From: Bacteroidales bacterium | GTDB lineage: Bacteria > Bacteroidota > Bacteroidia > Bacteroidales > UBA932 | Direction: 5' to 3' | DNA: 42,531 nucleotides | NCBI GenBank assembly: GCA_017458145.1 | Contig: JAFTGA010000002.1 | Span: forward strand, 1 to 42,531 | Part shown: piece after piece, positions 25,264 to 33,602 of the stretch | Position numbering within the stretch: position 1 is the stretch's first letter | How the letters are laid out: the number at the start of each line of letters is the position of its first letter | The notes under the pieces: generated by a model | What the model saw: the letters and a program-made list of their open reading frames with translations, nothing else | Told to the model about the DNA's origin: nothing | Databases searched by the model: none | Position numbers and translations under genes: made by a program

Positions 25264-25446
25264 ATGAAAAGAACAGCAGTCCTTCTATTCGCGACCCTTT
25301 GCCTGGCGGCAGCGACTATCCCCTGCATCCGGGCAGGAATGAGCTGTCCGTCAGAAATTGAACATTCCGCACAATTTCTGAACAACCGGACACGGAAAGT
25401 CCGGCAAGAAATAGCTACTTTTGCGAAACTCATACAACTCACATAA
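25264..25446 (+). pseudogene. Signal-peptide-bearing short ORF, probable gene remnant
   Basis: Sixty residues: MKRTAVLLFATLCLAAATIP then CIRAG form a good Sec signal peptide, but the mature part is only about 36 residues, matches nothing I know and runs through the GH3 promoter box. A -7 box lies 34 bases upstream. Either a truncated secreted protein gene or a small secreted peptide. Confidence 0.35.
25416..25423 (+). promoter_or_regulatory. -7 box of the tandem GH3 operon
   Basis: TACTTTTG matches TAnnTTTG, 33 bases before the ATG at 25457. Confidence 0.55.
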
Positions 25447-25456
25447 TTCAACGGAT

Positions 25457-27784
25457 ATGAAGAAATACTTTCTGATGGCCGCCGCCGCCCTGATGGGCGT
25501 GTCCGCGCTGGCCCAGCCGCAGCTGAGAAAGGACAACATCGACGAAGTCCTCGCTGCGATGACCCTGCAAGAGAAGGCCACCCTGCTGGTCGGCGGCGCC
25601 CGCGCCGCGGTCGTGAACGGCGTTACCTCCGGTGTCGCCGCCCAGGTGCCCGGCGCAGCCGGCAACACCCGTCCCATCGAGCGCCTCGGCATCCCGGGCA
25701 CCGTCCTCGCCGACGGCCCTGCCGGCCTGCGCATCAGCCCGACCCGCGAAGGCGCCTCCCAGACCTTCTACTGCACCGGATTTCCGGTGGGTACGCTCCT
25801 CGCCAGCTCCTGGGACACCGCCCTGGTGGAGCAGGTGACCGACGCGATGGGCAACGAGGTCCACGAATACGGTGTGGACGTGCTGCTTGCCCCGGGTATG
25901 AACATCCACCGCAACCCGCTCTGCGGACGCAACTTCGAGTATTTCTCCGAGGATCCGCTCCTGTCCGGCAAGATGGCCGCCGCCTACGTGCGCGGCATCC
26001 AGAAGAACGGTGTGGGCACCTCGATCAAGCACTATGCAGCCAACAACCAGGAGACCAACCGCAACGAGAACGACGCCCGCATCAGCGAGCGTGCCCTGCG
26101 CGAGATCTACCTCAAGAACTTCGAAATCGCCGTCAAGGAGTCCGATCCCTGGACCGTGATGTCCTCCTACAACCAGCTCAACGGCGAGTACACACAGCAG
26201 AAGAAGGATCTGCTGACCACCGTCCTGCGGGACGAGTGGGGCTTCAAGGGCATCGTGATGACCGACTGGGGCAACAAAGCGGGGACCGTCAAGTCCGCCT
26301 GGTCCGGCAACGACCTGATGGAGCCGGGCAACCAGAACGAGATCGACCGCATCGTCGCGGGCGTGCAGGACGGCAGCCTGGACATCAAGGATGTGGACCG
26401 CAATGTCCGCCGGATGCTCGAGTACATCGTCCGCACCCCGTCCTTCGCGAAGTACAGGTATTCCAACAAGCCGGACCTCAAGGCCCACGCCGCCGTGGCG
26501 CGCCGCGCCGCCGGTGAGTCGATGGTCCTGCTGCGCAACGAGAACGCCGCCCTCCCGCTGAAGGGCGCCGGGAAAGTGGCCCTGTACGGCGTCTCCGCCA
26601 TCGACTTCGTCGCGGGCGGTACCGGTTCGGGCGACGTCAACAAGGCCTACGTCGTGAATATGGAAGACGCGATGGTCCAGGCCGGCTTCACCCTGGAGAA
26701 AGACCTCGTCGACTACTACAAGGCCTTCGCCGCTTATGACAAGGCCCAGACGACGCTGAGCGGCACCGGCAATAACTGGTTCACCCGCCGCAAGCTCGCT
26801 GAGATCGCCGTCCCCGCCGCCGCCATCGAGCGTCAGGCGAAGGCCAATGACCTGGCCGTCATCGTGCTCGGCCGCAACGCCGGCGAAGGCGCCGACCGCA
26901 AGATGATTGACGACTTCGAGCTGACCGCCGTGGAGCGCGAGCTCCTGCAGAACGTGAGCGCCTCCTTCCACGCCCTGGGCAAGAAGGTCGTGGTCGTGCT
27001 CAACATCGGCGGCGTGATCGAGACCAACTCCTGGAAGAATCTCGTGGACGCCATCCTGCTGCCCTGGTCTCCGGGCCAGGAGGGAGCGAACGCCGTCGTC
27101 GACGTGCTCACCGGCAAGGTGAACCCTTCCGGCAAGCTCCCGATGACCTTCCCGGTCAATTTCATGGACCATCCGTCCTCCGCCAACTTCCCGTACAACT
27201 ACACCCGTCCGCAGAATTTCGGCTGGAACCGCGGCCCGCAGCAGCCCGTCAAGGACGTGGACTACACGGAATATGAAGAAGGGATCTATGTCGGCTACCG
27301 CTACTTCAACACCGCCGGCAAGGAGGTCTCCTATCCGTTCGGCTTCGGCCTGAGCTACACCTCCTTCGCCTATGGCAAGCCGGTGGTGAAGGCCACGGCG
27401 GACGGCTTCGAGGCCAGTGTCACCGTGACCAACACCGGCTCCGTGGCCGGCAAGGAAGCGGTCGAACTCTACGTGACCGCCCCCGAGGCCGGGCTCGCCA
27501 AGCCCGCCCGCGAACTCAAGGCCTTCGCCAAGACGCGCGAGCTCAAGCCGGGTGAGAGCCAGACCCTCACGATGAAGGTGGACAACTACTCCGTCGCCTC
27601 CTTCAACGACGCCGCCTCTGCCTGGGAAGCCCCTGCCGGGACGTACCGCGTGCAGTTCGGCGCCAGCGTCGAGGACATCCGCGCCACGGCCGTCTATACC
27701 CTCAAGAAGGCGCAGAGCTGGCCGGTGAACGACCTGTTCAAGCTGGAGCAGCCGCTGGAGGAAATCACCGTAACGAGAAAATAA
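25457..27784 (+). CDS. GH3 beta-glycosidase, exported (first of tandem pair)
   Basis: A 775-residue enzyme with a Sec signal peptide (MKKYFLMAAAALMGVSALAQ). GH3 architecture is complete: N-terminal (beta/alpha)8 domain with VLADGPAGLRI, NFEYFSEDPLL, IKHYAANNQET and the nucleophile in GIVMTDWGN (Asp270); an alpha/beta sandwich domain with VVLNIGGVIETNSW and GKLPMTFP; and a C-terminal fibronectin-III-like domain starting FEASVTVTNTG. The family releases terminal beta-linked glucose, xylose or related sugars. The start at 25457 follows the promoter box; an earlier TTG start lies in that box. It forms an operon with the second GH3 gene, 12 bases downstream. Confidence 0.92.
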   Translation: MKKYFLMAAAALMGVSALAQPQLRKDNIDEVLAAMTLQEKATLLVGGARAAVVNGVTSGVAAQVPGAAGNTRPIERLGIPGTVLADGPAGLRISPTREGASQTFYCTGFPVGTLLASSWDTALVEQVTDAMGNEVHEYGVDVLLAPGMNIHRNPLCGRNFEYFSEDPLLSGKMAAAYVRGIQKNGVGTSIKHYAANNQETNRNENDARISERALREIYLKNFEIAVKESDPWTVMSSYNQLNGEYTQQKKDLLTTVLRDEWGFKGIVMTDWGNKAGTVKSAWSGNDLMEPGNQNEIDRIVAGVQDGSLDIKDVDRNVRRMLEYIVRTPSFAKYRYSNKPDLKAHAAVARRAAGESMVLLRNENAALPLKGAGKVALYGVSAIDFVAGGTGSGDVNKAYVVNMEDAMVQAGFTLEKDLVDYYKAFAAYDKAQTTLSGTGNNWFTRRKLAEIAVPAAAIERQAKANDLAVIVLGRNAGEGADRKMIDDFELTAVERELLQNVSASFHALGKKVVVVLNIGGVIETNSWKNLVDAILLPWSPGQEGANAVVDVLTGKVNPSGKLPMTFPVNFMDHPSSANFPYNYTRPQNFGWNRGPQQPVKDVDYTEYEEGIYVGYRYFNTAGKEVSYPFGFGLSYTSFAYGKPVVKATADGFEASVTVTNTGSVAGKEAVELYVTAPEAGLAKPARELKAFAKTRELKPGESQTLTMKVDNYSVASFNDAASAWEAPAGTYRVQFGASVEDIRATAVYTLKKAQSWPVNDLFKLEQPLEEITVTRK

Positions 27785-27796
27785 TCTGACAGAGAT

Positions 27797-30118
27797 ATGA
27801 AGAAAGCACTGATGTTTGCTTCTTCCTGCCTGCTGTTCGCCGCCTGCCAGGGCGGCGATCCGCAGTTGGGAAAGGCCTCCGTGGACAAGGTCCTCGGAGC
27901 GATGACCCTCGAGGAGAAGGTCCATTTCGTGATCGGCACCGGCATGTCCGGCGCCTCCGGAGACAATGCCGTCATCGGCGCCACCAAGAAGATCGTGCCC
28001 GGTGCGGCCGGTACCACGTATCCGATTGAGCGCCTGGGTATTCCGTCCATCGTACTGGCCGACGGCCCTGCCGGCCTGCGCATTGATCCGACCCGGGAAG
28101 GGGAGACGCGCACCTATTACTGCACCCATTTCCCGATCGGGACCCTGCTCGCTTCCACCTGGAACCAGGAACTCGTGGAGCAGGTGGGCACCGCGATGGG
28201 CGAGGAAGTCCACGAGTACGGCGCCGACGTGTATCTCGCTCCGGCCCTCAATATCCACCGCCATCCGTTGAACGGCCGCAACTTCGAATACTATTCCGAG
28301 GATCCGGTCATCGCCGGCAAGACCGCCGCGGCGTATGTGCGCGGCGTCCAGAAGAACGACGTGGGCACTTCCATCAAGCACTTTGCCTACAACAACCAGG
28401 AGACCAACCGCACGGGCAACGACGCCGTGATCAGCCGCCGCGCCCAGCGGGAGATCTACCTCAAGGGCTTCGAAATCACCATCAAGGAGTCCGATCCCTG
28501 GACGGTGATGTCCTCCTACAACAAGATCAACGGCACGTACACTTCCCAGAGCCGCGACCTGCTGACCACCATCCTGCGTGACGAGTGGGGCTACAAGGGC
28601 CTGGTGATGACCGACTGGTTCGGCGGTGACGACGGTGCGGCGCAGATCGCGGCCGGCAACGACATGCTCCAGCCGGGCACGGACAAGCAGTACGAGCAGA
28701 TCATGGCCGCCCTGAAGGATGGCTCGCTGAGCGAAGCCGAACTGGACGTGTGCGTGCGCCGCGGCCTGGAACTCGTGCTCCGCAGCCCCAAGGCGAAGGG
28801 CTATGCCTACGGCAATGAGCCCGACCTCAAGGCCCACGCCGCCGTGACGCGCCAGAGCGCGCTGGAGGGCATGGTCCTGCTGGAGAACAAGGGTGTGCTC
28901 CCGCTGCAGGGGACCGGCAAGGTGGCCCTCTTCGGCTGCACCTCCTACGATTTCATCCCGGGCGGCACCGGCTCCGGCAACGTCAACCGCGCCTACACCG
29001 TGTCCCTGCTGGACGGCCTGAAGAACGCCGGTTTCACGGTGGACGAATCCTTCAAGGATGTGTACCTGCGGCACATCTCCGAGGAGGAGGCTGCCTTCAA
29101 GGCGTCGCTGCCTGACGACCAGAATTCTGCCTTCTACCCGGTTCCGCGTCCGTCCGAGCTGGTGATTTCCGCGCCGGAACTGGCGGTCTCTTCCCGCGCC
29201 AATGACCTGGCCATCATTACCTTCGGTCGCAACTCCGGGGAGTTCTTCGACCGCTCCGCAGCCGACTTCTCCCTGTCCGCCCAGGAGCACAAGCTCCTGC
29301 AGGACGTGACCGCCGCCTTCCACAAGGCCGGCAAGAAGGTCATCGTCGTGCTCAACATCGGCGGCGTGATCGAGACCGCATCCTGGAAGAACATCCCCGA
29401 CGCCGTCCTGCTGGCCTGGCAGGCCGGACAGGAGGGCGGCAACTCCGTGACGGACATCCTGACCGGCCGCCAGAGCCCGTCGGGCCGTCTGCCGATGACC
29501 TTCCCGGTGAACCTGATGGACGCCGGCTCTTCGGCCAACTTCCCGATCGACGCCGACACGGGCTTGTACTTCGTGAACCGCCGTGAGGACATCGGCCAGA
29601 AAGACGTGGACCGCACGGTCTATGCCGAGGGCATCTATGTGGGCTACCGCTGGTTCGACAAGAAGGGCCTGCAGGTGTCCTACCCGTTCGGCTACGGCCT
29701 GAGCTACACGACTTTCGCCTATGCCAACCCGGCCGTGAAGGCCGCCGCGGACGGTTTTGACGCCACCGTGGAGGTGACCAACACCGGTGCCGTCGCGGGC
29801 AAGGAAGTCGTCCAGCTCTATATCTCCGCCCCCGCGGGCGGCCTGGACAAGCCGGTACGCGAACTCAAGGCCTACGCCAAGACCCGCGAACTCAAGCCGG
29901 GCGAGACCCAGACCGTGACCCTGCACGTGGACGCCTACGGCCTGGCTTCCTTCAATGAAGCCGCGTCTGCCTGGGAAGCCGCGGCAGGCGAGTACACCGT
30001 CGCCTTCGCCGCCAACTCCCGCGACATCCGCTGCTCGCTGCCCTTCACGCTCTCCCAGGCCCAGTCCTGGCCCGCCCACGACGTGCTCGCCCCGCAGCAG
30101 GCCATCCCGGCTCTCTGA
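27797..30118 (+). CDS. GH3 beta-glycosidase, lipoprotein (second of tandem pair)
   Basis: A 773-residue paralogue of the previous gene, clearly related along its full length, with the nucleophile in GLVMTDWFGG (Asp273), NFEYYSEDPVI, IKHFAYNNQET and the C-terminal fibronectin-III-like domain. The main difference is at the N-terminus: MKKALMFASSCLLFAAC is a lipoprotein signal (Cys17), so it should be membrane-anchored while the first is soluble in the periplasm. Loops after the nucleophile also differ (WFGGDDG versus WGNKAG), which may change specificity. A strong terminator at 30147-30181 ends the operon. Confidence 0.92.
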   Translation: MKKALMFASSCLLFAACQGGDPQLGKASVDKVLGAMTLEEKVHFVIGTGMSGASGDNAVIGATKKIVPGAAGTTYPIERLGIPSIVLADGPAGLRIDPTREGETRTYYCTHFPIGTLLASTWNQELVEQVGTAMGEEVHEYGADVYLAPALNIHRHPLNGRNFEYYSEDPVIAGKTAAAYVRGVQKNDVGTSIKHFAYNNQETNRTGNDAVISRRAQREIYLKGFEITIKESDPWTVMSSYNKINGTYTSQSRDLLTTILRDEWGYKGLVMTDWFGGDDGAAQIAAGNDMLQPGTDKQYEQIMAALKDGSLSEAELDVCVRRGLELVLRSPKAKGYAYGNEPDLKAHAAVTRQSALEGMVLLENKGVLPLQGTGKVALFGCTSYDFIPGGTGSGNVNRAYTVSLLDGLKNAGFTVDESFKDVYLRHISEEEAAFKASLPDDQNSAFYPVPRPSELVISAPELAVSSRANDLAIITFGRNSGEFFDRSAADFSLSAQEHKLLQDVTAAFHKAGKKVIVVLNIGGVIETASWKNIPDAVLLAWQAGQEGGNSVTDILTGRQSPSGRLPMTFPVNLMDAGSSANFPIDADTGLYFVNRREDIGQKDVDRTVYAEGIYVGYRWFDKKGLQVSYPFGYGLSYTTFAYANPAVKAAADGFDATVEVTNTGAVAGKEVVQLYISAPAGGLDKPVRELKAYAKTRELKPGETQTVTLHVDAYGLASFNEAASAWEAAAGEYTVAFAANSRDIRCSLPFTLSQAQSWPAHDVLAPQQAIPAL

Positions 30119-30146
30119 GACATCTTTGATTGTCAGCTACTTGCAG

Positions 30147-30181
30147 AAGACCTTCGGAAGAGATTCTCCGAAGGTCTTTTT
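30147..30181 (+). terminator. Terminator after the GH3 operon
   Basis: A perfect 12-bp stem (AAGACCTTCGGA / TCCGAAGGTCTT) with an 8-base loop is followed by a run of five T. Confidence 0.88.
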
Positions 30182-30234
30182 GTATATGCCGATCCAATCA
30201 ATTTTTTTCGTATCTTGTCAAAAATATTCCGAAC

Positions 30235-30465
30235 ATGATCAGAAAATGGATCCACCGTGCGCTGAAGGGCGCATCGCTGACGACGGCGCTATTTGTCTTC
30301 CAGGCCTGCTACGGCACGCCTCCGGATAGGATTGATCATCCTGCTCCGCCGGAGGAGCAGGCTCAATGGGCCGCGCAGGAGCAGGACGCGCCGGAGGAAG
30401 TGGTCCCGGAGGAGGGGCGTGAAGCCGCCTCTGAGAAGCAATCCGGAACGGACGCAGCCGAATGA
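30235..30465 (+). CDS. Small lipoprotein partner of the radical SAM enzyme
   Basis: A 76-residue predicted lipoprotein: MIRKWIHRALKGASLTTALF leads to VFQAC, lipid-bearing Cys25, then a conserved-looking YGTPPDRIDH. The rest is acidic and Pro/Gln/Glu-rich (PPEEQAQWAAQEQDAPEEVV) and probably disordered. Its stop overlaps the radical SAM start (ATGA), so the two are translationally coupled. This matches what I recall of the rSAM/lipoprotein pairs of Bacteroidetes (TIGR04133 with TIGR04134), in which a short lipoprotein with Cys-Tyr-Gly precedes the enzyme. A role as substrate for modification is inference. Confidence 0.7.
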   Translation: MIRKWIHRALKGASLTTALFVFQACYGTPPDRIDHPAPPEEQAQWAAQEQDAPEEVVPEEGREAASEKQSGTDAAE

Positions 30466-31532
30466 TCGGCCGTCTGCTCCACCGTGCCTTCCGCGCCAAC
30501 GAGACGGCGGTTCATGAGCTGAACTACCTCTTCTGGGAGTGCACGACCCGCTGCAATCTTCACTGCCGCCACTGCGGCAGTGATTGTTTTGCGGCGAGCC
30601 GCGACGTGGATATGCCCCTGGAGGACTTCCTGCGGGCCTTCGACACCATTCCCGCACAGGAGCGGGCGCAGCCCTTCACCGTCGTGCTGACGGGCGGGGA
30701 GCCGCTGCTGCGCCCTGATATCGGCGAGGTGGGACGGGCCCTGCGGAGCCGGGGCGTCGGCTGGGGGATGGTCTCCAACGGATGGTTCTACGATGCGGCG
30801 ATGCATCGGAAGCTGATGGCCGCCGGGATGGGCACGCTCACCATCAGCCTGGACGGGCTGGAAGCCTCGCACGACTGGATGCGCGGCCGGGCCGGGAGTT
30901 ACTCCCGCGCGCTGGAAGGCATCCGCCTGGCGGCCGCGGAGCCGCGGCTGAACTTCGACGTGGTGACCTGCGTCAACCGGCGCAATTTCCGCGAAGTGGA
31001 AGTCCTGTATGACCGTCTGCAGGTCCTGGGGGTGCCGCAGTGGCGCATCTTCACGATCATCCCGATCGGCCGCGCCGCCGACGATCCCGAGATGCACCTG
31101 ACCGACGCGGAGTTCGTCTCCCTGATGGACTTCATCGCCGCGAAGCGGGAGCTTCCGGGTCCAGCCCGTCCGATGAAAGTTACTTTCTCCTGCGAGGGCT
31201 ATCTCGGCCCGTACGAAAACAAAGTGCGGGACGTGCCGTATTTCTGCCACGCAGGGATCAACATCGCCTCGGTGCTGATCGACGGGCGGATCTGCGCCTG
31301 TCCCAACATCGACCGGGACGCGTTCTGCCAGGGCAACATCTACACGGACGACTTCTGGCAGGTCTGGCAGGAGCGCTTCGGGCCTTTCCGCGACCGCAGC
31401 TGGACCCGCAGGGGCCCCTGCGCGCACTGCAAGGTCTGGCGCGACTGCCTGGGCAACGGGATGCACAACTGGCACGGCTCCTGCGAACAGGTCCTGAACT
31501 GCCATTACGGGAAAATCATCAATGCACGATAA
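30462..31532 (+). CDS. Radical SAM enzyme of the rSAM/lipoprotein system
   Basis: A 356-residue radical SAM protein. The 4Fe-4S motif is CNLHCRHC (Cys31, Cys35, Cys38) inside FWECTTRCNLHCRHCGSDC, which also has Cys27 and Cys42; this extended form is what I recall for the TIGR04133 family. TGGEPLLRPDI follows as the SAM-binding GGE motif. The C-terminal part has a SPASM/twitch-like cysteine set: FCHAGINIAS, ICACPNIDRDAFCQGNIY, PCAHCKVWRDCLGN and a last pair near the end, probably for auxiliary clusters. Such enzymes often modify peptides. Its coupled upstream lipoprotein is the natural substrate candidate; the next gene, an S46 peptidase, starts immediately after its stop. Confidence 0.88.
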   Translation: MIGRLLHRAFRANETAVHELNYLFWECTTRCNLHCRHCGSDCFAASRDVDMPLEDFLRAFDTIPAQERAQPFTVVLTGGEPLLRPDIGEVGRALRSRGVGWGMVSNGWFYDAAMHRKLMAAGMGTLTISLDGLEASHDWMRGRAGSYSRALEGIRLAAAEPRLNFDVVTCVNRRNFREVEVLYDRLQVLGVPQWRIFTIIPIGRAADDPEMHLTDAEFVSLMDFIAAKRELPGPARPMKVTFSCEGYLGPYENKVRDVPYFCHAGINIASVLIDGRICACPNIDRDAFCQGNIYTDDFWQVWQERFGPFRDRSWTRRGPCAHCKVWRDCLGNGMHNWHGSCEQVLNCHYGKIINAR

Positions 31533-33602
31533 ATGAAAAAATTATTTGTTCTTACCCTGGCCCTGCTCGCCGTCCTGCCCGCTCTGCGCGCGGAGGAGGG
31601 GATGTGGCTGCCGATGCTGATCTCGCAGCGCATAGAGGATATGCAGGCCCACGGCTTCCGGCTGACGGCCGAAGATGTGTACAGTATCAACCAGGCGTCG
31701 CTCAAGGATGCCGTAGTGCTGTTCGGCTCGGGCTGCACGGGCGAGGTGGTCTCGCGTGACGGCCTGCTCTTCACCAACCACCACTGCGGCTACGGCCAGA
31801 TCCAGCAGCACAGCAGCGTGGAGCACGACTACCTGAAAGACGGCTTCTGGGCGATGAACCGCGGCGAGGAGCTGCCCAATCCCGGGCTGACCGTCAGTTT
31901 CCTGGAGCGGATGGACGAGGTCACGGCGGCGGTGCTGAAGGGCTATGTGCCGACGATGAGCGAGGCGCAGCGCGACTCCGTGGTGCGGGTCAATTCCGAC
32001 GCCATCGTGAAGTCGGTGGCCAATCCGGACAAGGGCGTCCGCGCCCGCGTGGAGGCGCTCTACTACGCCAACCAGTACTTCCTCTTCGTCTATAAGGTGT
32101 ACCGCGACGTGCGTCTGGTCGGTGCTCCGCCGTCCTCGATCGGCAAGTTCGGCGGCGACACGGACAACTGGATGTGGCCGCGCCACACGGGGGATTTCTC
32201 TATCTTCCGCATTTATGCAGATAAGAATAATGAACCGGCTGATTATTCGGAGGATAACGTTCCGTTCCATCCGAAGCGCTTCTTCGAGATCTCCCGCGCC
32301 GGCGTGCAGGAGGGCGACTTCACTTTCGTGTATGGCTGCCCGGGCAGCACGAAGGAGTACGTGACCTCCGACGAGGTGCGCTATGTGGGCGAGGTGTCCG
32401 ATCCGCAGAAGATTGCCCTGCGCACCCTGCGCCTGGACATCCTCCAGAAGTACATGTCGCAGGACCAGGCCGTCCGCATCCAGTACTCTTCCAAGTATGC
32501 CAATATCTCCAACGCCTGGAAGAAGTGGCAGGGGGAGTCGAAGGGCATTGCCCGGCTGCACACCGTGGCGGCGAAACAGGACTTCGAGCGGCGCTTTGCG
32601 GCCTGGGCCCGGGGGACGCGCTATGAGGGCCTCCTGGACCGTTTGTCGGGCCTCTACGCCCGCCGCAATCCGGCATTCCGCGCGTACGAATACTACACCG
32701 AGACGGTGCGGACCGTCGAACTGCTCTCCTTTGCCGCCCAGGTGCAGGCCGCGCTGGCGGGCGGACGGGAGGTGGCGCCGGTCTCCGGGCGCTTCTACAA
32801 GGACTACTACCAGCCCATCGACGAGGAGATTTTCGTGGCGATGCTGTCGGCCTTCGACAAGAACCTGGAGCCCGGCTACAAGCCGGAGTATTTCCTCCGG
32901 AAACTGGCGGAATACGGCTCCGTGGAGGCCTGGAGGGATGATCTGTATGCCCGCTCGCTGTTCACGGATCCTGCCCGCGTGGCCGCGCTGACTGCGGACG
33001 ACCTGGCCGCCGTCGAGGCCGATCCGGCCTGGGAACTCTACGACGCCTTCAGCCAGTGGTACCTCGCAGAACTGCGGCCCGTGATATCGGAGACTGCCCA
33101 GGATATCAATCTGGCATACCGCGCCTATATGCGCGCGCAGATGGAGTTCGAGCCCGGCAAGGCCTTCTATCCCGACGCCAACCTCACGCTGCGTGTCGCT
33201 TACGGCCACGTGGCGGGTTACAGCCCTTCCGACGCGGTGTACTATGCGCCGGTGTCCACGCTCAAGGGGATCATCGAGAAGGACAATCCGGATATCTTTG
33301 ATTATGACATCCCGCAGGCCCTGCGCGATATCTATGCCGCTGGCGGCCACGATGCCCAGCCGGTCTGCTTCTTGGCGACCAACCACACTTCCGGTGGCAA
33401 CTCCGGCAGCCCGGTGATCAACGCCGACGGCCGTCTGATCGGGATCAACTTCGACCGCGTGTGGGAGGGGACGATGAGCGACATCGTCTTCGATCCGGAC
33501 TACTGCCGCAATATCTCGCTGGACATCCGCTACCTGCTCTTCGTCGTGAAGGAGATCGGCCATGCGGACTGGCTCCTGGACGAAATGGTCTTCGCGGACT
33601 AG
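31533..33602 (+). CDS. S46-family dipeptidyl-peptidase (DPP11-like)
   Basis: A 689-residue exported serine peptidase with signal peptide MKKLFVLTLALLAVLPALRA. The trypsin-like catalytic triad is clear: TNHHCGY (His83/84), RHTGDFSIFR (Asp221) and SGGNSGSP (Ser624). In this family the residue downstream of the serine sets specificity: Gly in DPP7 (hydrophobic P1), Arg in DPP11 (Asp/Glu P1). Here GINFDRVWEGTMSD places Arg642 there, favouring acidic P1 cleavage. It would release dipeptides in the periplasm. The gene starts directly at the radical SAM stop (TAAATG), implying co-transcription, though the functional link is unknown. Confidence 0.92.
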   Translation: MKKLFVLTLALLAVLPALRAEEGMWLPMLISQRIEDMQAHGFRLTAEDVYSINQASLKDAVVLFGSGCTGEVVSRDGLLFTNHHCGYGQIQQHSSVEHDYLKDGFWAMNRGEELPNPGLTVSFLERMDEVTAAVLKGYVPTMSEAQRDSVVRVNSDAIVKSVANPDKGVRARVEALYYANQYFLFVYKVYRDVRLVGAPPSSIGKFGGDTDNWMWPRHTGDFSIFRIYADKNNEPADYSEDNVPFHPKRFFEISRAGVQEGDFTFVYGCPGSTKEYVTSDEVRYVGEVSDPQKIALRTLRLDILQKYMSQDQAVRIQYSSKYANISNAWKKWQGESKGIARLHTVAAKQDFERRFAAWARGTRYEGLLDRLSGLYARRNPAFRAYEYYTETVRTVELLSFAAQVQAALAGGREVAPVSGRFYKDYYQPIDEEIFVAMLSAFDKNLEPGYKPEYFLRKLAEYGSVEAWRDDLYARSLFTDPARVAALTADDLAAVEADPAWELYDAFSQWYLAELRPVISETAQDINLAYRAYMRAQMEFEPGKAFYPDANLTLRVAYGHVAGYSPSDAVYYAPVSTLKGIIEKDNPDIFDYDIPQALRDIYAAGGHDAQPVCFLATNHTSGGNSGSPVINADGRLIGINFDRVWEGTMSDIVFDPDYCRNISLDIRYLLFVVKEIGHADWLLDEMVFAD

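Follow-up and report, generated by a model that had tools for sequence, protein, structure and literature searches.

One of the described systems close to the locus analyzed here is the splicease PlpX, a SPASM radical SAM enzyme that works together with PlpY (PMC10373908, available part). The published splice site of PlpX is XYG, with MYG and LYG as natural sites, and the sequence PIRPLYGLPI is found in published splice tags (available parts of PMC10533398, PMC11002830, and PMC10373908). Protease inhibition is given as the activity of spliceotide products in the excerpts of PMC11117315 and PMC10373908, PlpX is placed under IPR026482 in that of PMC11002830, and 939 predicted splicease systems are attributed to Scott et al. 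(2022) in that of PMC10533398.

A literature search for TIGR04133, TIGR04134, the pairing of a radical SAM enzyme with a lipoprotein or the NCBI product name yielded no paper on any of them. Searches limited to texts combining at least three themes yielded neither a paper linking spliceases to lipoproteins or "Bacteroid" nor one tying DUF1843, Nif11 and XYG together. The terms lipoprotein and Bacteroid are likewise absent from the available part of the splicease text PMC10533398, and the main text of a Bacteroidales RiPP survey (PMC10352776), as far as it was available, mentions neither lipoprotein nor spliceotide. TIGR04133 enzymes may already be among the systems of Scott et al. (2022), so that the proposal made below may not be the first of its kind.

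Organization of the locus

The window, i.e., the whole stretch of 42,531 nucleotides that was analyzed (Bacteroidales bacterium, contig JAFTGA010000002.1), contains a gene pair consisting of a small lipoprotein, P0003, and a radical SAM enzyme, P0001, followed by a peptidase, P0002 (Table 1). Re-reading of the window bore out the open reading frames and coordinates of the preliminary description, including the four bases (ATGA) that are common to the P0003 stop and the P0001 start, and the gapless start of the peptidase gene, whose ATG at 31533 comes right after the P0001 stop.

Table 1. Features of the lipoprotein/radical SAM locus; positions refer to the window.
Feature	Position	Strand	Basis
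Terminator-like hairpin with T run, between upstream gene and lipoprotein gene	30142..30184	+	Fold, sequence
Lipoprotein P0003, 76 aa, acidic, putative substrate	30235..30465	+	ORF and homologues beside homologous enzymes
Codons of Cys25-Tyr26-Gly27-Thr28-Pro29 (lipid Cys and xYGxP), proposed modification site	30307..30321	+	Sequence, motif statistics
Radical SAM/SPASM enzyme P0001, 356 aa, TIGR04133 family	30462..31532	+	ORF, NCBIfam, Pfam
Cys27-Cys42 region of P0001, with CX3CX2C (Cys31, Cys35, Cys38)	30540..30587	+	Sequence, alignment rows
SPASM part of P0001, Cys262 to Cys347	31245..31502	+	Pfam, alignment rows
S46 dipeptidyl-peptidase P0002, DPP11-like	31533..33602	+	PF10459, 716.9 bits

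The hairpin has a folding energy of -23.4 kcal/mol (z -6.3), a value equaled by none of 200 shuffles. It was not among the elements reported by a consensus scan, which also detected no promoter of the sigma-70 type. Since such a strong hairpin with a T run separates P0003 from the upstream gene, the lipoprotein gene probably opens its own transcription unit. Two similar consecutive genes, which by eye are glycoside hydrolase family 3-like, are located at 25421-27784 and 27797-30118, with the second one stopping short of the terminator-like hairpin.

The radical SAM enzyme and its possible relationship to spliceases

The assignment of the enzyme to TIGR04133 in the preliminary description proved correct: P0001 reaches 453.1 bits against a cut-off of 425 and also matches the Pfam families Radical_SAM and SPASM. 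Both the five N-terminal cysteines (positions 27, 31, 35, 38, and 42) and the cysteine-rich C-terminus (262, 280, 320, 323, 329, and 347) are present as described. Within TIGR04133, P0001 represents a low-scoring branch in which the lipoprotein is encoded upstream and carries CYGxP at the lipid cysteine. The same genome (G000) encodes a second TIGR04133 enzyme, L001 (contig C39:24550-25599; 574 bits), with a charged lipoprotein downstream whose tail ends in LLYAVPNVPYREVKEK, whose motif is YAVP instead of YGxP and whose TIGR04134 score covers the signal peptide only and stays below the cut-off.

The second NCBIfam match of P0001 is TIGR04103 (136 bits; the cut-off of 725 is not reached), the family to which PlpX presumably belongs. 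Of the six other TIGR04133-like enzymes scanned, TIGR04103 is second-best for L001 as well, but in the remaining five AhbD or TIGR04053 takes this place and ranks above TIGR04103. In a 47-row tree, the TIGR04133 sequences (14 rows) joined the splicease clade (9 rows, L125 being included twice) with a support of 99/96 and apart from the AhbD-like, NirJ, TIGR04053, and MftC rows. The support of this join was still 99/96 in a 46-row tree from which the duplicate of L125 had been dropped. Placing TIGR04133 in a clade with AhbD/TIGR04053 was rejected by the AU test (p-AU 0.0013), a clade with MftC was not (p-AU 0.093). A 58-row tree, for which 12 further divergent rows (11 with long branches) had been added, left the deep joins open, including the one between TIGR04133 and the spliceases.

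The cysteine sets of the two groups differ. C42 and C244 are cysteines in all 169 TIGR04133-like rows (the window enzyme being counted twice) vs. two and one of the eight splicease-clade rows, respectively, whereas position 333 is a cysteine in all eight splicease-clade rows and in none of the 169 (Gly in P0001). With Gly at 333, P0001 lacks the splicease SPASM cysteine run CX2CX5CX3C. By analogy with anaerobic sulfatase-maturating enzymes, the change at 333 and C244 could mean that one ligand of the first auxiliary cluster has been exchanged for another.

A locus that we compared directly lies on a Nostoc plasmid and encodes a PlpX-type TIGR04103 enzyme (853 bits; cut-off 725) together with a Nif11 precursor ending in GGRGSIALYGLPPELF (ALYGLPPELF), an end that is close to the tails of TIGR04133 partners, one example being L043 with LMYGVPPARF. 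The Nostoc enzyme is followed by the gene of a small protein that would, judged by its place, be PlpY; a phmmer search with this single 71-residue query, which is weak as a probe, yielded no relative at the fetched TIGR04133 loci. P0001 thus resembles PlpX in being a SPASM radical SAM enzyme with an xYG(x)P motif in its partner and, in one tree, in belonging to a sister clade, a join left open by the wider tree, but it is paired with a lipoprotein where TIGR04103 enzymes have Nif11/NHLP precursors, and it has the additional C42 and C244 and no cysteine at 333. Because of the cysteine differences, and since no PlpY-like gene appeared with the one query tried, P0001 is not filed here as a member of the PlpX family; it would rather work like PlpX without belonging to it.

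Peptides with a comparable motif are also found in other parts of the splicease clade. In Agathobacter rectalis, a previously unannotated short peptide ending in PVMYGTGVRM is encoded just upstream of the radical SAM gene (L232:2806-2913). At two Azospirillum loci, three of five DUF1843 peptides contain RPYGPA, MLYGGA or KPYGVA, while the other two start with YMAT, and one of three Aureibacter DUF1843 peptides contains QPYGAG, the others having LYAAG and MYAAS. Some DUF1843/GDL peptides next to TIGR03913-type enzymes carry xYG or xYA near their N-terminus (L234:2147-2860, L235:1787-2242, L242:528-1243). The GDL/DUF1843 (TIGR03913) system is part of the splicease clade and has some short peptides with xYG near the N-terminus, as TIGR04133 partners do; unlike the latter, no lipobox was seen in them. 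At sequence level, this suggests that both systems may perform the same chemistry. For three of the eight splicease-clade rows (L122, L125, L236), the scanned stretches contained no convincing xYG peptide; at L122, this stretch extended only 326 bases upstream of the match.

The lipoprotein P0003

P0003 has a signal peptide with the lipobox FQA/C (ALFVFQA/C) at Cys25, as judged by pattern, and continues with YGTP, so that xYGxP directly abuts the presumed lipid-bearing cysteine (C-Y-G-T-P). It has no match in NCBIfam or Pfam. TIGR04134, the family proposed for it in the preliminary description, was discarded, as the model gave no match to P0003 at E-values up to 10 (cut-off 39.8 bits). Partners of other TIGR04133 enzymes do exceed the cut-off, namely five of the ten partner proteins scanned, and in these five members xYGxP follows the lipobox. 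TIGR04134 proteins have a genomic role like that of P0003, the differences being the short acidic tail of P0003, which is devoid of a further domain, and the unmatched model.

Other genomes encode homologues of the lipoprotein in the equivalent position next to homologues of the enzyme, which indicates that the pairing of P0003 with P0001 is more than chance. In the branch of P0003, the signal peptides are alike up to FQACYG, with seven invariant columns among nine hand-chosen rows. P0003 and its homologue from G036 have little in common outside the signal peptide and CYGT. The acidic tail, which had been regarded as an oddity, turned out to be ordinary in this context. Asp and Glu make up 18-36% of the residues in 20 of 22 short YG partners (mean fraction 0.25 over all 22), and since short partners are usually acidic, the tail of P0003 fits a recurring type.

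A shared Tyr-Gly motif in otherwise differing partners

In 61 genomes (the one of the window and 60 relatives), the lipoproteins encoded beside TIGR04133 enzymes are dissimilar, yet mostly contain x-Y-G-x-P. This was quantified on a set of 168 distinct TIGR04133-like enzymes including P0001 and its paralogue, which is a sample and not a census. Its named loci were drawn from 520 confirmed relatives, of which the 80 best were kept; the 58 TIGR04133-like ones among these were used here (L062-L119), and the rest served in the trees. Further stretches were taken from 393 genomes that belong to the order of the window and comprise automatically selected as well as chosen loci, weighted to low-scoring enzymes. 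Removal of repeats, fragments and weak matches reduced 180 matches to the 168 rows.

A lipobox ORF on the same strand within 700 nt was present for 152 of the 168 enzymes, one with YG for 148, among them the window enzyme, and one with YGxP for 129. These counts were obtained with a relaxed lipobox finder; the first version had recovered a partner with Y[GA]x{0,2}P for 139 of 168 enzymes and was loosened after misses had been seen, which led to the 148 with YG. YGxP is present in 121 of the 156 lipobox ORFs located no more than 120 nt from an enzyme, compared to a mean of 3.15 and a maximum of 8 in residue shuffles. As YG alone was not discriminating, being present somewhere in 45 of 79 control genes, and was dropped as a marker, YGxP near the mature N-terminus was used instead: 118 of the 156 adjacent lipobox ORFs have it within their first 60 mature residues, vs. 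2 of the 79 controls. The controls are lipobox genes of the same loci more than 1500 nt away, taken as longest non-overlapping ORFs. They replaced a first control set (YGxP in 3 of 163), the short members of which resembled shadow ORFs in composition (mean Asp+Glu 0.05). One control match, CYGAP at L107, may be a distant partner. Per 1000 mature residues, the density of YGxP is 8.6 in partners vs. 0.16 in 595 other genes of the loci. Clustering of 143 partners gave 37 clusters, the largest with 98 members, a number of clusters that is inflated by the short tails; two cluster members at L163 look like chance occurrences of YG.

Applied to these 393 genomes, a profile built on the FQACYGxP region detected a lipoprotein in 31 of them at E <= 1e-4, and 29 of these contain a TIGR04133 enzyme (E <= 1e-90) vs. 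93 of all 393. The Fisher value of this co-occurrence is 5e-18, uncorrected for kinship and with 5 of the 31 genomes having supplied rows of the profile. Of the two exceptions, G057 has an enzyme devoid of its middle part adjoining the CYGxP lipoprotein, and in G083 the 1754 bases around the lipoprotein contain no enzyme. Acidic CYGxP lipoproteins with no enzyme in the surrounding stretch and a TIGR04133 gene on another contig were also observed at L013 (G017) and L015 (G033); it is possible that these two are modified in trans.

The 141 distinct YG partners define the shape of the motif. The residue before Tyr is C in 53, E in 35, M in 24, V in 10, and K in 7 partners, and more rarely A (5), L (3), I (3) or D (1), a variety to be expected if this residue retains its side chain. 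After Gly, T (63), V (21), P (19), and S (11) are most common, and Pro occupies the fourth motif place in 119 partners. Two to five copies of YGx{0,2}P are present in 26 partners and none in 8, some partners carrying YA or a YG not followed by Pro. Tyr comes directly after the lipid Cys (distance 1) in 52 cases; in the others, the distance ranges from 2 to 80, with a single, maybe accidental, case at 201.

No adjacent lipobox ORF with YG was found for 20 of the 168 enzymes. These include L097, L101, L105, L106, and L217, whose downstream proteins have no lipobox yet contain YGx{0,2}P, as illustrated by the acidic protein of L217 with three copies of EC(I/V)YGPPPG. The feature in common is therefore Tyr-Gly and not lipidation. 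Also among the 20 are L118 and L060, which belong to the closest relatives of P0001 (69 and 70% identity) and have no recognized partner, and L222, where a CYGVP lipoprotein is encoded 1.4 kb upstream of the enzyme. The motif proteins of L097, L101, and L106 resemble one another in their basic N-terminal start and in a hydrophobic stretch of the AVGAVVAAG type, and a Lachnospiraceae locus (L119) has a lipoprotein encoded upstream of the enzyme (upstream of 5836) with five VYGPP in its acidic tail.

With respect to the earlier suggestion of a modification at or near the lipobox, the proximity stands for the window, where Tyr-Gly abuts the lipid Cys. In other loci, the motif is found at a distance of tens of residues, occurs in several copies or belongs to proteins with no lipobox. 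Judged from these sequences, modification is more likely to take place at Tyr-Gly than at the lipobox.

Proposed reaction and alternative explanations

Taken together, the likeness of the motif to PlpX-type sites and the tree argue for P0001 being a splicease-like enzyme that acts on lipoproteins, in this case beside the lipid cysteine, a reading that we consider somewhat probable. The differing SPASM cysteine set, the search for a PlpY-like gene that yielded none with its single query, the deep joins left open by the wider tree, and the 20 enzymes with no adjacent YG lipobox ORF, close relatives of P0001 among them, count against it. The precursor would probably be bound via its signal peptide as the recognition region, and the enzyme would act in the cytoplasm on the unexported protein. 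Tyr26 would be attacked and its tyramine part lost, which would convert Cys25 to an alpha-keto-beta residue; export, normal lipidation, and signal cleavage would then follow. The likeliest role of the product would be that of a membrane-anchored, protease-reactive alpha-ketoamide exposed toward the periplasm or the cell surface, borne on the acidic tail in P0003 and on a small domain in some relatives. This small domain shows a weak likeness, below the Pfam cut-off, to carboxypeptidase-regulatory-like domains.

The motif evidence fits any reaction at Tyr-Gly, and so the pair might also be a target of other radical chemistry, e.g., a cross-link between Tyr and a neighboring residue, hydroxylation, desaturation, or an MftC-like oxidation. 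MftC acts on Tyr (PMC8326336, available part), its grouping with TIGR04133 was not rejected by the AU test, and the SPASM cysteine set of P0001 is unlike that of the spliceases. On the other hand, the motif as well as the best-supported relationship point to spliceases, and a cyclophane between the Tyr ring and the i+2 beta-carbon is impossible where i+2 is Gly (L082, L083, L105). We therefore regard such chemistry as unlikely, if still worth considering. It appears quite improbable that the enzyme targets a small molecule or cofactor, with the lipoprotein as a mere partner and YG as a binding tag. AhbD, NirJ, and MftC are indeed among the relatives, but a clade with AhbD/TIGR04053 is rejected by the AU test, and the repeated motif copies on variable scaffolds resemble substrates.

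A thioether or another change at the lipobox cysteine itself, similar to sacti- or ranthipeptides, might be suspected from the 53 of 141 distinct partners with Cys immediately before Tyr. Elsewhere, E, M, V, K, and other residues take this place, the Cys-Tyr spacing is highly variable, and five loci have motif proteins with no lipobox at all, which makes this explanation very improbable. For an ordinary small lipoprotein that came to lie beside an unrelated enzyme by chance, one could point to the missing family match of P0003 and to the comparison with G036, with little alike past the signal peptide and CYGT. Adjacency and motif are, however, kept in many genomes, lipoprotein and enzyme co-occur across genomes, and the motif counts contradict such a coincidence, so that we give it next to no credence.

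The splicease-like reading may extend beyond P0001. TIGR04133 and its near kin, which were found in Bacteroidota and, by contig assignment, in Spirochaetota, Fibrobacterota, Fidelibacterota, and Bacillota, could constitute a splicease branch whose substrates are mostly membrane-anchored lipoproteins, a generalization that we advance tentatively and place somewhat short of probable. A specific candidate site and a reaction that can be tested are thereby proposed for an orphan radical SAM family, which is common in the order of the window (93 of the 393 genomes sampled). If the proposal is true, backbone splicing to beta-amino acids would modify proteins of the cell envelope, beyond small peptide products, and a single residue would be involved in both splicing and lipidation wherever the motif abuts the lipobox.

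The neighboring S46 peptidase

The preliminary description of P0002 as a DPP11-like peptidase is in line with its best solved relative, the Asp/Glu-specific dipeptidyl-peptidase DPP11 (5jxf, 609 bits; DPP BII, 325 bits), although the only S46 match in NCBIfam is DPP7 with 630 bits, under its cut-off of 1200. The order lipoprotein-radical SAM enzyme-S46 peptidase, for which conservation had been considered, did not hold up as a general unit: an ORF lies on the same strand no more than 250 nt downstream of 123 of the 168 enzymes, and among these only the window enzyme and L063 are followed by an S46 gene; the close relatives L062 and L118 are not. Apart from partner proteins, no other common downstream gene stood out at the TIGR04133 loci. 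The peptidase is probably co-transcribed with P0001, but it is not a conserved part of the system. A DPP11-like peptidase of the Asp/Glu type here adjoins a locus whose lipoprotein has a Glu-rich tail, a pairing to which little weight is given since the gene order is confined to the window and L063.
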